A stretch of 64,000 bases of DNA, taken from assembly GCA_012840015.1 (NCBI GenBank), contig DUMF01000015.1:1-64000 (forward strand). Reading direction: 5' to 3'. Shown here piece after piece: positions 6,613 to 13,478 of this stretch; within the stretch, counting starts at the first letter, position 1, and every line of letters starts with the position of its first letter. A program made the translations under genes and the position numbers. A model generated the notes under the pieces. It was not told the DNA's origin and ran no database searches. It was given only the letters and a program-made list of their open reading frames with translations. Source of the stretch: Bacillota bacterium (lineage in GTDB: Bacteria > Bacillota > Sulfobacillia > DUMF01).

Positions 6613-6693
6613 ATGAGGAAAATCATCAAGGCCATCTTGGCACTTGCTGCGCTGGTGTTAGCTGGCGGTTCTACCTTTAAGTGGATTCCATAA
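6613..6693 (+). CDS. 26-residue hydrophobic peptide
   Basis: A short frame ATG...TAA encodes MRKIIKAILALAALVLAGG followed by STFKWIP: two positive charges, one membrane-length helix and a short polar tail. An AGAGGAG Shine-Dalgarno lies about 6 bases upstream. It fills the gap between the hypothetical gene and the HD-GYP gene and would end about 35 bases before the latter's preferred start. It may be a small membrane peptide, perhaps a partner of the membrane HD-GYP protein, or a leader that couples translation. Evidence is composition and ribosome site only. Confidence 0.5.
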   Translation: MRKIIKAILALAALVLAGGSTFKWIP

Positions 6694-6728
6694 TCGGGTG
6701 GCTGCCGGCCCCTTTTGGGGGACAAGCG

Positions 6729-8027
6729 GTGAACGGCTCAAGCACCAGGCTTAATGCATATATCAGGGCATGCGTGATCCTCGGTGGCTTGCTCCTCGTG
6801 GTGTATCAGCCCTTTCCACTAAATACTCAACATTTGCCGGGTCTAGCGGTCTTGGGCTTACTCATTTTTGTGAGTGAATACCTGGCGGTACCCCTCCCGC
6901 GAGGCGGGGGAAGCGTTTCTGTTAGCTCACCTTTGATCTACACCGCAATCATCGTATATGGAATCCGTGAAGCCACATGGCTGGCCTGCGTTGCGTCCAT
7001 ATCAATAAGTGAGCTTTCTGCTCGTCTTCCTTTGACGGCCTTTCTGTTCAACCGGGCTGCAATTACCATCTCCACGGTAGCCGGTGGTATTGCGTATGAA
7101 CTTTCAAATGGCCAGCCAGGTTCGCTCGACCTGAGACATGGGTTCGGTCCGCTTTTTGTGTGTGCGCTCACCTACACAGCGATCAATGGCGGCCTCGTCC
7201 TGCTGGCAATGATGATCCAGAAGGGAAAATCTGTGACGTCGCTGTGGGTAACCAATTTCCGTTGGAGTCTTCCGAGCCTGCTGGCCGTAACCCCCCTCGC
7301 GGGAATAATGGCGTTCGTTCTCATCCGGTCTGGTCCTATGAGCATCGCTTTGTTTTTCTTGCCCCTTTTAGCGGCCCGGCACTCTTTCGGACGATATGTT
7401 GAATTGCGGAAGGTATTCATCCAGACCATAAAGGCACTCGTTCAAACCCTGGACGCCAAAGATCCGTATACACGTGGCCATTCTGAGCGAGTGGCTTATT
7501 GGGCTTCAACTATTGCTCGGAAACTCAACCTGCCAGAGCAGGATATAGAATTGTTGGAGTATATCGGCCTGCTGCACGACGTGGGTAAGATTGGCATCAG
7601 CGATGCCGTGTTGAAAAAACCCGGCATTTACACGAAGCAAGAATACTCAGAAATGAAAGCGCACCCCGTTTTAGGAGCCGAAATCATTTCGGGGATCACT
7701 CTTCTGGGCAAAGGAGCCACTTGGGTCAAGTACCACCACGAAAGGCACGACGGCACAGGGTTCCCTGAGGGCCTGAAAGGGGACGATATACCGTTGGGCG
7801 CGAGAATAATCGCCGTCGCAGATGCTTTCGATGCAATGACTTCAGATCGCCCGTATAAGAACGCCATGTCCCTGGAACAGGCGAGGGAAGAACTCAAAAG
7901 ATGCTCAGGCTCTCAGTTCGATCCGAGAATCGTACAGGTAATGCTCACTTGCACAGAAGGACTTCAGCAATGCGAGGATAAGACAGATGCAGTTCCCAAA
8001 ACATCCCATCAGTATACAGAGATATAG
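6729..8027 (+). CDS. Membrane HD-GYP c-di-GMP phosphodiesterase
   Basis: The protein (432 residues from GTG 6729) has an N-terminal multi-helix membrane sensor (about 10-225) and a complete HD-GYP domain (about 250-385). The catalytic residues are visible: HSERV at 251, HDVGKIGI at 283, H312, HH at 336-337, GTGFP at 342-346 and VAD at 363-365. It should hydrolyse c-di-GMP. The sensor (LPRGGGSVS, LFN, AGGIAY at residues 54-123) matches that of the diguanylate cyclase at 1581-3185. I preferred GTG 6729 because GGGGGA precedes it; an upstream GTG at 6681 has no ribosome site and would overlap the small ORF. Confidence 0.9.
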   Translation: MNGSSTRLNAYIRACVILGGLLLVVYQPFPLNTQHLPGLAVLGLLIFVSEYLAVPLPRGGGSVSVSSPLIYTAIIVYGIREATWLACVASISISELSARLPLTAFLFNRAAITISTVAGGIAYELSNGQPGSLDLRHGFGPLFVCALTYTAINGGLVLLAMMIQKGKSVTSLWVTNFRWSLPSLLAVTPLAGIMAFVLIRSGPMSIALFFLPLLAARHSFGRYVELRKVFIQTIKALVQTLDAKDPYTRGHSERVAYWASTIARKLNLPEQDIELLEYIGLLHDVGKIGISDAVLKKPGIYTKQEYSEMKAHPVLGAEIISGITLLGKGATWVKYHHERHDGTGFPEGLKGDDIPLGARIIAVADAFDAMTSDRPYKNAMSLEQAREELKRCSGSQFDPRIVQVMLTCTEGLQQCEDKTDAVPKTSHQYTEI

Positions 8028-9333
8028 TAGCTTCCATCGATATGCGTTGGCAGCTGTCGCCTCGAGTATCGCGGCTTTTGGCGCAACACGCTTGACCCTA
8101 AAAGGGTTGAACGTCGTGGTAATGTTTACCCTAATCCACGGCATGGCGAACTTGACTCCTTTGGAACTCGGATTTCTGCCGAAAACAAGTATCGGCCCCA
8201 GTGCTTGTATAGCATCGGTGTTCGTTCTTGACCCGTGGAGCGGAGCGCTCAGTACCTTCTGTTCTTCAATGCTAGAGCTCGCTGCCAAGCCCTTCCAGGA
8301 GGTAGCACCCAGTATGTCTAAGGCCGTCCTTTCGGTTTTTATGGGCGGGATCTGTCGCCATTGGGTCCTCCGGGTAGGGGGGTCCCATGTCTTGGCGGCG
8401 GCAGCTGCTGTCCTCGTCTTCCTCACCTGTTATACATTAATACCAGGTTTTCTCGAGATGGCCCGGTTGCGATTGCCACTTCTACCTGCTTGGGGCAAAG
8501 AAATCCGCACGCTGGCCCCGAAACTTCCAGTGATCTTGGGGCTTGCCTTCCTGCTACGCGAGGTTCTGGTCGCCAATGTCTCGAGCGGCTGGGCTTGGGT
8601 GCCTGTACTCTTTGTAATCGCTGCACTTGCAGTTTATGCTTCCACGATGTCCAGACGAATGGAAGAGCTCTTCTCCAGCACGCTTACGACGCTGGTACCC
8701 ATAATTTTGCGAAGTGGGGGCATACACGGGGATCGGATATTCGTTCTACGGGTGGCTTCTCACGCTGCCGCTATCGCCCAAAAGCTCTTACTGCCAGAAC
8801 CGTACGTGAGGTCCGTTTATTATGGCGCCCTTCTTCATGACATTGGCTTCGTGGCCGAAGGGAAAGATGAATCGGAGCACGTCCAAATCGGGTATGAGAT
8901 CGTTAAGGGAATCGACACCCTGAAGGACGCAGCCAGCTTCGTCTTGCACCATCACGAGCGCTTTGACGGGAAAGGCTATCCGCTCGGCCTTTCAGGAAGA
9001 GACATTCCTCTCGGTGCCAGGATCATCGCCGTAGCCGACCGTTACGTGTCGCTTACTACTGCCCCCCCAAATGGACACTCCGTTTCCATTCAGGAGGCTC
9101 TGAAAACGATGCGGGCGTCCGCAGGGGTACAATTTGACCCCGATCTCGTGGAGTTGATCACGGAAACCGCCGAGGAAGAGGAGGAATTAGGGTTTGCTGT
9201 TTTTTTTGACAATTATTGCTTCGGTTCTAGTAGGAATCCTCAGAGGTGGAAAGCTGAGTCGCCTGGGCAACATATCTGTCAAATGGTGGTGGGCATTGAT
9301 TCTAGCCCTGGCGATAAGACTGTCTCTTCATAG
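7987..9333 (+). CDS. Second membrane HD-GYP protein, with a degenerate c-di-GMP pocket
   Basis: This 448-residue protein overlaps its upstream homologue by 41 bases. It has a membrane sensor (about 15-220) and an HD-GYP domain with metal ligands kept (HD 284-285, H298, HHH 321-323, GKGYP 328-332, D351). HDxGK has become HDIGF, however, and the segment between HD and the next histidine is 15 residues shorter than in its neighbour, removing the KxGI..PG stretch that contacts substrate. It may have altered specificity or act as a receptor. The last 47 residues are encoded in the region that also encodes the start of the DUF5317 gene, so the natural C-terminus or the local sequence is doubtful. 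Confidence 0.82.
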   Translation: MQFPKHPISIQRYSSFHRYALAAVASSIAAFGATRLTLKGLNVVVMFTLIHGMANLTPLELGFLPKTSIGPSACIASVFVLDPWSGALSTFCSSMLELAAKPFQEVAPSMSKAVLSVFMGGICRHWVLRVGGSHVLAAAAAVLVFLTCYTLIPGFLEMARLRLPLLPAWGKEIRTLAPKLPVILGLAFLLREVLVANVSSGWAWVPVLFVIAALAVYASTMSRRMEELFSSTLTTLVPIILRSGGIHGDRIFVLRVASHAAAIAQKLLLPEPYVRSVYYGALLHDIGFVAEGKDESEHVQIGYEIVKGIDTLKDAASFVLHHHERFDGKGYPLGLSGRDIPLGARIIAVADRYVSLTTAPPNGHSVSIQEALKTMRASAGVQFDPDLVELITETAEEEEELGFAVFFDNYCFGSSRNPQRWKAESPGQHICQMVVGIDSSPGDKTVSS

Positions 9334-10830: not shown

Positions 10831-11091
10831 CTATCTTCTGGTTTGACCCTGGCCATGCTGGCCCTGTTGCTCCTGGGTCTGACCGAATACCTTGTACGTG
10901 GGCTCCTGAGCTTCGACGTTTGACACTCTAGCCCTCAGGGGTCTGATCACACTGTTCTCGAGAGCGTCCGCCATCTGAGTGAAAGCCTGTTTGGCAGCCT
11001 GGTCTTGGGTGTCCAGAGCAAAGGATTTCAATTGGCTGTGTATCGACTCAGATTGAGTGAGACACTGGTGGAGTTTTTCCCCGACAGTCAC
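10831..11091 (-). CDS. DUF1657 protein
   Basis: This 86-residue helical protein starts MTVGEKLHQCL and has the DUF1657 pattern (two helices, ALDTQDQAAKQAF, then a conserved EPTYKVF near the end). DUF1657 proteins often occur in spore-formers next to SpoVA-type genes; their function is unknown. I chose the GTG at 11091 because AAAGGAGA lies 8 bases upstream; a longer frame to 11139 would overlap the CPBP gene. The C-terminus is a short Gln/Gly-rich tail. Confidence 0.85.
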   Translation of the reverse strand: MTVGEKLHQCLTQSESIHSQLKSFALDTQDQAAKQAFTQMADALENSVIRPLRARVSNVEAQEPTYKVFGQTQEQQGQHGQGQTRR

Positions 11092-11125
11092 TGTACTTCT
11101 CTCCTTTCTCGTACTGTCGTTTGTA

Positions 11126-11950
11126 TTATTCCAATCCACCCTGCCGGGCTATTCTTTTAAAACTACGAACCAATAAAACGGCAATTACTGCCGTTACGAT
11201 TATCGTAGCCTCCGGACCGTATCCGCCGCCCGTCAAAAGCGTGGGAACACCCGCTCTTTCTGTAAACACTACCAACCCCTGGAATCTGCTGCCCTGCGGC
11301 GGCACCACCTCCAAAAGAGTCATCTGCACCCAGTTCCAACCGAGATGAAACCCGATGGCAGACCACAGGCTGCCCGATTCGGCCACCATCAAGACCAAAA
11401 GCACTCCAATCGCAAAGACGTTGATCAAAACGAGCGGCGCATAACCGGGGTTTACGTAGTGAATCACGCTGAATACCAGGGAAGATACCACCATGGCGGG
11501 AATGAGACCGTGCCGGCGCCGAAGCATTTGCATTATATAACCCCTGAAAAACAGTTCTTCCCCAAATGCCACGCCAGCAGACCTGAAAAATCCAGACAAG
11601 GGGATCGCCCACGTGAAAGCGGCCACCCGCTGGTAGGTGACGGCCCCCACAAGCCACTGTACTATGGGAACTATGGCCATCGCACCTCCACCAACCAGTG
11701 TACCGCGAACTACCCTTCTCCAGGCTGCCCCGGGCGAAAGCTTCAGCCCGATTTCGGCAAATCGTCTTTTGTCAAAAAACGACTGAAGTATAAACACGAA
11801 AAGCAGCGAGATTCCGACATAGGCAAGCGCTCCCACCAGCTCTGCCAAAGGAGGTTTTAACGTGCTGTATACAGTCGCAGATTCGGCGAGTAGTGCAGCC
11901 ACGAGAAAAACAGCAAGCCCCATGGCGGTCCTGTTAATGCTCCTCAACAC
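11126..11950 (-). CDS. CPBP-family (CAAX-like) intramembrane metalloprotease
   Basis: The 274-residue protein has about eight membrane helices and the CPBP/Abi glutamic-type signature: GEELFFRGYI (EExxxR), FSVIHYVNPG (histidine) and a final HLGWNW. Family members cleave or process prenylated or small membrane peptides; the substrate here is unknown. The start is GTG at 11950. It lies 14 bases downstream of the SDR-like gene and 34 bases ahead of the DUF1657 start, so the three may be co-transcribed. Confidence 0.9.
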   Translation of the reverse strand: MLRSINRTAMGLAVFLVAALLAESATVYSTLKPPLAELVGALAYVGISLLFVFILQSFFDKRRFAEIGLKLSPGAAWRRVVRGTLVGGGAMAIVPIVQWLVGAVTYQRVAAFTWAIPLSGFFRSAGVAFGEELFFRGYIMQMLRRRHGLIPAMVVSSLVFSVIHYVNPGYAPLVLINVFAIGVLLVLMVAESGSLWSAIGFHLGWNWVQMTLLEVVPPQGSRFQGLVVFTERAGVPTLLTGGGYGPEATIIVTAVIAVLLVRSFKRIARQGGLE

Positions 11951-11964
11951 AATACGAATCCCCC

Positions 11965-13077
11965 CTACGAGGCATAGATCTTATCCAACACCGCAATGAA
12001 CGCCTTCAATATTTCTTCGCGTTCCAGAGCTACCCTAGATACCTCCCTTAAAGCATCGGGATCTTTTGTAAACCTCGCCGCTTCTTCGGGAACCCGCCTA
12101 CAGTATTCTACCAGCCTGCTTATTAACCTCTTCAACTCCGGATATTCAGAGCGAAACTGATTCAATGCCAGCTGATCAGAGGCTTCGATTTTCTGGAGCC
12201 GCGCTAAAAGATCGGCAGCCAAGCGCGCCCAAGCACTTATGGACATCCCTGTCGCCGCTTTAAATTGTGCTTTGGCAATGGGCCTCAAGAATATAGGCAA
12301 CCTGTTGAAATCTGCCTCGGTGAATTGGATGACCTCCTGAAAACGTCGTCCGAGATCCACGGCTCGACGAAGCGTTCGCTCTGGTACCAATTCGATCAAG
12401 AAAAGCGGTCTTGCCTGCGCGGCTTTATCGAGTACAGTGCTGCCGTCCACTACTTTACCGTGGTATTCGGATGCCAAAGCGACGGCTAAGTAGGCCGCAG
12501 CAGCCCCCACGAGTCGCGGAGGAATCGAACCTGTGTCCAATGCCACGATATGCACACCCGCTTTCTCGTGCTGCAGCTCAGCCGCGATACTTCTGGTGAG
12601 GCCCACTATTCCCTGCGTTGAAGCGATAAACGCGCTCATACGCGGCCTTGCCTCGGTTGATACCATGTTGATTATAGTACCACGTCCCATAGCCAACATT
12701 CCCGGCAGAAACCCTTTGCACGTCAGGAAAGCCCTGCGCAAGTTAACTGCAATCATGCTGTCCCATAACGCCACACTGGTCTCGAGGAAAGGCTCGCCTG
12801 GACTGATGGCCAAACTGTTTACCAACAAGCTCACCGGCCCTAAAGTCTCTCGGACCCGCTGGGCTACGTGGGCAACGTCCTCTTCTCTCGACACGTCGCA
12901 CTCAACGAAAAGAGCCCTACCGCCGCCCTCTCTGATTGAGCTGGTAATCGCTTCACCCCTACCCGATACGTCGCAGATAGCTACCGCCGCGCCGAGCCTC
13001 CACAGAGCTCGTGCGACTCCCTCGCAAACATCTCCAGCCCCGCCTGTAACAAACGCTACTTCCCCTAGCAGATCCAT
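11965..13077 (-). CDS. Short-chain dehydrogenase-like pseudoenzyme with a C-terminal helical domain
   Basis: Residues 1-215 follow the SDR Rossmann fold closely (VAFVTGGAG, ECDVS at 59-63, VNLRRAF at 111-117, GLTRSIAAEL at 159-168). All the signature motifs are broken: TGxxxGxG is TGGAGDVC (11-18), NNAG is NSLA (87-90), and catalytic YxxxK is FIAST, with Phe150 for Tyr and Thr154 for Lys. Ser140 remains. Dehydrogenase activity is therefore unlikely. Residues 225-370 form a charged helical extension (IQFTEADFNRLPIFLRPIA...) not typical of SDRs. The gene is transcribed away from the c-di-GMP-controlled flagellar genes. A structural or sensory role is inferred. Confidence 0.75.
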   Translation of the reverse strand: MDLLGEVAFVTGGAGDVCEGVARALWRLGAAVAICDVSGRGEAITSSIREGGGRALFVECDVSREEDVAHVAQRVRETLGPVSLLVNSLAISPGEPFLETSVALWDSMIAVNLRRAFLTCKGFLPGMLAMGRGTIINMVSTEARPRMSAFIASTQGIVGLTRSIAAELQHEKAGVHIVALDTGSIPPRLVGAAAAYLAVALASEYHGKVVDGSTVLDKAAQARPLFLIELVPERTLRRAVDLGRRFQEVIQFTEADFNRLPIFLRPIAKAQFKAATGMSISAWARLAADLLARLQKIEASDQLALNQFRSEYPELKRLISRLVEYCRRVPEEAARFTKDPDALREVSRVALEREEILKAFIAVLDKIYAS

Positions 13078-13344: not shown

Positions 13345-13437
13345 ACTCAGTCCGACAAAGGCAAACCCGTCGAAAGGCGGCGACGCAAAGCCACGGGTCT
13401 AAAGCTTTCAGCCATGACCGCCGGGCTGCCGAAGATA
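13345..13437 (+). ncRNA. Cyclic di-GMP-I (GEMM) riboswitch
   Basis: The stretch has the conserved elements of class I c-di-GMP aptamers in the right order: AAAGGCAAACC (13357-13367), a hairpin CCGTC-GAAA-GGCGG with GNRA tetraloop (13367-13380), CGACGCAAAGCC (13381-13392), the tetraloop-receptor-like GGGTCTAAAG (13395-13404), and a second arm with ACCGCCGGGCTGCCG (13417-13431). It is directly followed by an intrinsic terminator and then flhO. By analogy with clostridial examples, c-di-GMP binding probably favours termination and lowers flagellar expression. The window also encodes one cyclase and two HD-GYP proteins. Confidence 0.9.
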
Positions 13438-13440
13438 CGG

Positions 13441-13478
13441 ACCTTCTGGTGCGTCTGCTGCCGGAAGGTATTTTGTTT
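13441..13478 (+). terminator. Riboswitch-linked intrinsic terminator ahead of flhO
   Basis: A 9-bp stem (13441-13449 with 13461-13469, one G-U pair) is followed by ATTTTGTTT. It ends 26 bases before the flhO start and begins 3 bases after the aptamer, the usual layout of a transcriptional expression platform. Confidence 0.75.

Follow-up and report, generated by a model that had tools for sequence, protein, structure and literature searches.

What remains of an enzyme when its catalytic residues have been replaced and its fold has been kept? This question is raised by a gene in the 64,000-nucleotide stretch of DNA analyzed here (the window; assembly GCA_012840015.1, contig DUMF01000015.1, from a bacterium of the Bacillota class Sulfobacillia), whose product joins a short-chain dehydrogenase (SDR) half to a C-terminal helical domain (CTD). 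A preliminary description, made from the sequence, had proposed that the SDR half lost every catalytic residue and took on a non-enzymatic role, such as a regulator or scaffold. Pseudoenzymes are usually discovered long after the loss of catalysis. In the family described below, apparently active, dead, deleted, and missing SDR forms are found beside one retained CTD in living lineages, and the transition from enzyme to non-enzyme can therefore be followed.

Gene structure and the SDR half

The gene, its motifs, and its surroundings are summarized in Table 1. A purine-rich stretch resembling a ribosome-binding site lies upstream of the ATG, and no start codon from which the CTD alone could be translated stands out within the gene. 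The SDR half matches PF00106 over residues 7-185 with an E-value of 1.9e-32 (112.8 bits against a cut-off of 26.6); at E up to 1, the only other Pfam families matching the protein are PF13561 and PF08659. In the predicted model of the full protein (pLDDT 79.4), the SDR fold is recovered, the best PDB match having a Z-score of 24.6 over 205 residues (rmsd 2.7). Profile and model thus agree with the earlier assignment of the N-terminal half to the classical SDRs. Relative to classical enzymes of the FabG or 3-hydroxybutyrate dehydrogenase type (PF00106), the window protein shares the profile match, the modeled Rossmann fold, and the Ser, Asn, and Asp positions, whereas it lacks the GxG and NNA motifs, the catalytic Tyr and Lys, and the substrate lid, and carries the CTD in addition.

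Table 1. Features of the window gene and its neighborhood (positions in the window).
Feature	Position	Strand	Basis or remark
Putative SDR-CTD pseudoenzyme gene	11965-13077	minus	ATG start, 370 aa, single open frame
SDR half, residues 1-226, predicted Rossmann fold	12400..13077	minus	PF00106 residues 7-185 and model
Degenerate glycine motif TGGAGDVC, residues 11-18 (G16 to D, G18 to C)	13024..13047	minus	alignment
Degenerate NNA(G) motif, N87-S88-L89-A90 (NSLA)	12808..12819	minus	alignment
F150 in place of catalytic Tyr	12628..12630	minus	Tyr in 18/18 relatives
T154 in place of catalytic Lys	12616..12618	minus	Lys in 18/18 relatives
Junction between residues 184 and 185, up to 36 substrate-lid residues missing in frame	12525..12526	minus	alignment
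CTD, residues 227-370, five predicted helices	11968..12399	minus	no convincing Pfam or NCBIfam match
CPBP/Rce1-like membrane protease gene	11126..11950	minus	PF02517, E 2.3e-19; starts 14 bases past the stop of the SDR-CTD gene
DUF1657 gene, overlapping the end of the CPBP gene	10831..11139	minus	PF07870, E 8e-13
c-di-GMP-I-GGC riboswitch aptamer	13351..13434	plus	RF03167, 71.6 bits; upstream of divergent flgF/flgG-type genes

Catalytic and cofactor-binding residues

The reported losses in the glycine motif, the NNAG motif, and YxxxK were all confirmed. Set against the TGxxxGxG pattern, the window protein retains T11-G12 and has lost both Gly of the GxG, which are present in 17/18 (first position) and 18/18 (second position) of the aligned SDR-CTD genes. 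The two replaced residues are presumably the Gly nearest the cofactor phosphates, and Asp and Cys at these sites would likely hinder or block binding of the NAD(P) phosphates. The statement that every catalytic residue is gone was too strong. Tyr and Lys are gone, but S140 and N112, at the Ser and Asn places of the Asn-Ser-Tyr-Lys tetrad of classical SDRs, are retained and align with conserved columns; D61 is retained as well. Similarly, the claim that the fold-defining segments remain holds for the core SDR fold in the model, but not for the stretch following strand 6, which covers the substrate as a lid in classical SDRs. This stretch is present in relatives and deleted from the window copy with the frame unchanged, a loss that the preliminary description had not reported.

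The residues that persist bear on two other readings of the protein. Ser140 and Asn112 could serve an enzyme that has adopted an altered chemistry through other residues, although it would have to work without the lid, Tyr, Lys, and glycine motif, and no recurring replacement residue can be seen for a protein with no known close relative; such an enzyme is highly improbable. An NmrA-like sensor, in which the Rossmann pocket would bind a nucleotide or metabolite and the CTD would relay the signal, could draw on the cofactor-pocket residues still in place (T11, G12, D36, D61, and N87). Nevertheless, the Asp and Cys substitutions probably close this pocket to NAD(P), and no NmrA-family profile in Pfam matches the window protein at E up to 1, which leaves the sensor improbable.

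The C-terminal domain

The helical extension had been described as 145 residues long. It is real and conserved, spanning about residues 233-369 (approximately 140 residues) and forming five predicted helices. Folded alone from one sequence, the window CTD gives a pLDDT of 92.6 and a pTM of 0.84. No convincing match to it was found among the Pfam or NCBIfam models; a small conserved domain is thus hidden behind an ordinary SDR annotation. PCP_red (PF08369) gave weak matches at E up to 1 in 4/20 CTDs (best E 5e-4), the window CTD not among them, and differs in length and context. Comparison of the CTD profile with the sequences of solved structures picked up mainly helical chains, coiled coils and designed bundles among them (best E 1.5e-4), and was rejected as reflecting composition. 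A Foldseek search with the predicted window CTD gave nothing at E <= 0.001. Structural alignment with VIA-align gave a best Z-score of 11.9, to a designed bundle, which is within the ordinary range for helical bundles. A high-ranking likeness to copper-storage proteins was given no weight because the four-helix bundle is a common arrangement.

Comparison with intact relatives

The SDR followed by a homologous five-helix CTD in one frame is the layout of a family to which the window protein belongs. SDR-CTD genes elsewhere in the phylum, such as L007, L031, and L029, have the same domain order, and their CTDs are 33-42% identical to that of the window protein. The SDR alignment comprises the window protein and 18 others keeping an SDR stretch; genes with a broken SDR (L040, L041/L064) and stand-alone CTDs were kept out. 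The catalytic Tyr and Lys are conserved in all 18 relatives and lost in the window copy alone. The preliminary description had asked whether the F/T substitution and the CTD are conserved together, and had named orthologues with an intact YxxxK as what would speak against its proposal. Such orthologues are what the alignment contains, and the two features do not travel together. As far as is visible in the aligned sequences, the catalytic loss is private to the window copy, and the SDR-CTD family would consist of apparently intact enzymes to which this copy is the exception.

The state of the window copy is that of one genome. Because all 40 relatives drawn share only their class with it, selection on this copy can be gauged only indirectly, and the tests below compare it with the family. 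Among conserved columns, 13/43 in the SDR (four through the lid deletion) and 3/10 in the CTD are changed in the window copy. The same leave-out test applied to other members gave between 1 and 19 changed SDR columns; the highest count belongs to an outlier, L036 (19/54), which nonetheless keeps Tyr and Lys.

Focal loss or general decay

Relative to family expectation, identity of the window SDR is 0.30 at 14 motif positions and 0.91 at the remaining SDR positions. The first figure is partly circular because the motif positions had been picked earlier for looking lost; the informative figure is the 0.91 outside them. The other 26 active-site positions stand at 0.90 of expected identity against 0.91 for the remainder (P 0.43), and the helix regions that pair subunits are fairly well preserved, at 0.83-0.89 of expected. 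Conserved motif columns are changed in 5/8 cases and other conserved non-gap columns in 4/31 (Fisher P 0.009), a difference that is not significant for a wider set of sites (P 0.16). An apparent enrichment over a wider active-site list (P 0.019 circular, 0.003 shuffled) was discarded, as it rested wholly on the motif positions named beforehand; that list had been drawn from general knowledge of SDRs after the alignment had been inspected. L036 was omitted from the identity test and L012s from the rate test described below.

In-frame codon bias is 0.123 in the SDR half, compared with 0.146, 0.106, and 0.092 in the CTD half and two neighboring genes. The stop-free frame is by itself weakly improbable under neutrality, with a probability of about 0.03-0.3 over the settings used. 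Uniform pseudogene decay is weakened by the focal loss, the 0.91 elsewhere, and the coding-like codon usage, because such decay, having struck most motif positions, would be expected to strike the rest equally hard. Judged by these comparisons, the SDR half does not look like plain decay, and its damage, apart from the lid, is focal.

The rate test points partly in another direction. On a fixed tree, the branches leading to the window copy are 0.888 for the SDR and 0.851 for the CTD, against tree totals of 9.42 and 15.70, respectively. Relative to the CTD, the window SDR half has thus evolved at 1.87 times the rate seen elsewhere (bootstrap 1.21-2.89; above 1 in 60/60 replicates). This acceleration is also what relaxed constraint would give. 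It bears on the main rival explanation, in which the SDR decays as a passenger: selection would act on the CTD alone, the frame would be kept by the CTD and by translation of the downstream operon, and the gene would be a stage towards a stand-alone CTD. The acceleration and the deleted lid agree with such a passenger, as do the eroded SDRs of four other carriers (G136, G297, G355, and G466) and the six genomes with the CTD alone, both detailed in the next section. Against it, the SDR still shows 0.91 of the identity expected outside the motifs and the lid deletion, and its codon bias is intact. On balance, a mere passenger is doubtful.

Distribution of the family and fates of its SDR

A search with the window protein matched 6/154 genomes of its class at E <= 1e-33, and the CTD profile matched 12/154 at E <= 0.01, some of these matches being weak and chance-like; both counts include the source genome itself, as does the CTD-profile count of 17/398 among genomes drawn from the phylum. 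Further class-wise searches at E <= 1e-10 matched 4/113, 1/7, 3/12, and 1/72 genomes, and one further class at E <= 1e-6 matched 3/20; known carriers are among these counts. The matches L024-L028 and L043 were considered chance hits. One contig scan for relatives in named genomes returned two SDRs, which match only over residues 3-190. The distribution of SDR-CTD and CTD genes is scattered.

Within this distribution, the SDR half has met several fates. Two genes carry in-frame deletions, L013 (G136) of the second SDR half and L035 (G297) of the SDR end, and in two others (L064 in G355; L040 in G466) broken SDR pieces lie upstream of the CTD. In L013, at 1126-2040, the SDR is joined straight to the CTD after helix F, which may be an assembly error. 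At least three lineages encode the CTD as a short protein without any SDR: L030/L033 (G196 and G504, one genus), L077-L079 (G258, G696, and G518, another genus), and L042 (G185). Around four of these six stand-alone CTDs (G196, G504, G258, and G185), no SDR fragments were found. Pairwise dN/dS for the SDR-less CTDs is 0.36 for the one pair in the first genus and 0.21, 0.24, and 0.54 for three pairs in the second; they are under purifying selection in both testable lineages. For comparison, five pairs of fused genes gave 0.12-0.42 for the SDR and 0.20-0.51 for the CTD. In the CTD tree, the window sequence groups with the SDR-less L030/L033 (ultrafast bootstrap 90), whose homologous helical domain is therefore that of the nearest branch. 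Loss in the family is not one-way, because in L012 (G150) two stop codons break the CTD frame that follows an intact SDR. A second partial CTD, consisting of the second half only, lies in G319 (L071, 1333-1725) about 38 kb from a full SDR-CTD gene on the same contig.

These fates allow a broader, tentative reading, in which the CTD would be a functional domain not described before, joined ancestrally to a redox-sensing or docking module, the SDR half, which several lineages went on to lose independently. The routes of loss would be point loss with the fold kept (the window protein), in-frame deletion (L013, L035), breakage (L040, L064), and entire loss (L030/L033, L077-L079, L042), and the window protein would then represent a surviving intermediate form linking the enzyme with a CTD to the CTD alone.

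Proposed role of the window protein

The reading we prefer, with a probability of roughly 0.45, is that the window gene encodes a pseudoenzyme in which the SDR half has turned into a scaffold carrying the CTD. The ancestor would have been a member of the SDR dehydrogenase family with an extra helical CTD, and the window gene would still make an intact protein. This lineage probably lost redox chemistry and normal NAD(P) binding with the GxG, the NNA, the Tyr, the Lys, and the substrate lid, while retaining the core fold and the long helices that pair subunits in classical SDRs. The SDR half may now serve as a dimerizing support on which the CTD is displayed; what matters to the cell may be the CTD itself, which is probably a helical bundle that binds proteins. 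In favor of this reading, the same architecture occurs in relatives with intact motifs, and Tyr and Lys are lost only here. Further support comes from the focal loss, the matching codon bias, the ribosome-binding-like stretch, the modeled SDR fold, the folding of the CTD alone, the dN/dS below 1 of the SDR-less CTDs, and the grouping of the window CTD with L030/L033. Dimerization, partner binding, and whatever part the shared operon of CPBP and DUF1657 genes may play are what we infer from this picture. Of the regulator or scaffold role proposed earlier, the pseudoenzyme-like loss in a retained fold stands; the loss is not a family trait, and the scaffold itself belongs to the conjectural steps.

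Retained subunit-pairing helices would also suit an inactive subunit whose active SDR partner is encoded at another place in the genome, an arrangement modeled on BbsC and BbsD. The active SDR with which BbsC pairs is adjacent to it, and BbsC is not known to carry such a CTD; proteins of its type presumably need none. At least five other SDR-type genes are present in the genome of the window protein, but none is adjacent: the Pfam-scanned neighbors are CPBP, DUF1657, and flagellar genes, and the contigs that hold the five further SDR matches are different ones. An inactive SDR subunit within a heterotetramer is already in print for BbsCD (title cited in PMC10818641), the closest precedent to judge by that title, and one in which, as here, the SDR is kept despite lost catalysis. 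Overall, a partnership of this type is unlikely for the window protein. Searches of the open-access literature for SDR pseudoenzymes, inactive SDR subunits, SDRs with helical C-termini, or Symbiobacterium SDRs returned no paper that describes this architecture, judging by title and the start of the abstract.

Genomic context

The SDR-CTD, CPBP, and DUF1657 genes likely form one operon, carried by a spore-former. DUF1657 is found in 2Duf-type spore proteins, according to the abstract of PMC10126465, and the operon may therefore be a sporulation one, a lead rather than an assignment. Carriers of the family gene are not enriched in spore-formers or in the flagellar locus, two associations that had been suggested for checking: SpoIVA is present in 24/26 carriers and 37/41 chosen non-carriers (P 1.0), and the FlgE/F/G domain in 21/26 and 38/41, respectively (P 0.25).

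The gene had also been placed beside c-di-GMP-controlled flagellar genes. The riboswitch is real, but it serves genes on the other strand. In 20 regions taken from the genomes of 19 relatives, the vicinity of the family gene contained no homologue of the window's flagellar genes. A flagellar or c-di-GMP role was rejected as unsupported, the gene being divergent from the riboswitch and showing neither a conserved neighborhood in these regions nor co-occurrence; the flagellar link is positional only. A terminator-like hairpin follows the riboswitch at 13441-13469 on the plus strand, ahead of the flgF/flgG-type genes; the region contains 6 terminator-like sites, no excess over the 5.9 of shuffled sequences. 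Near the riboswitch, two overlapping plus-strand open reading frames (6681-8027 and 7987-9333) show, by eye in their translations, motifs that we take to be of the HD-GYP type, and they are possible c-di-GMP phosphodiesterases.

A Pfam scan of 20 chosen proteins (19 neighbors of family genes and one SDR-CTD protein) revealed no shared theme. The neighbors are diverse and include a ROK kinase, an ABC transporter, a GyrI-like protein, methyltransferases, a hybrid-cluster protein, and a DNA ligase, among others. Genes for GyrI-like small-molecule-binding proteins lie near the CTD gene in L055 and L062, which belong to different families, and in L062 the two genes are directly adjacent.
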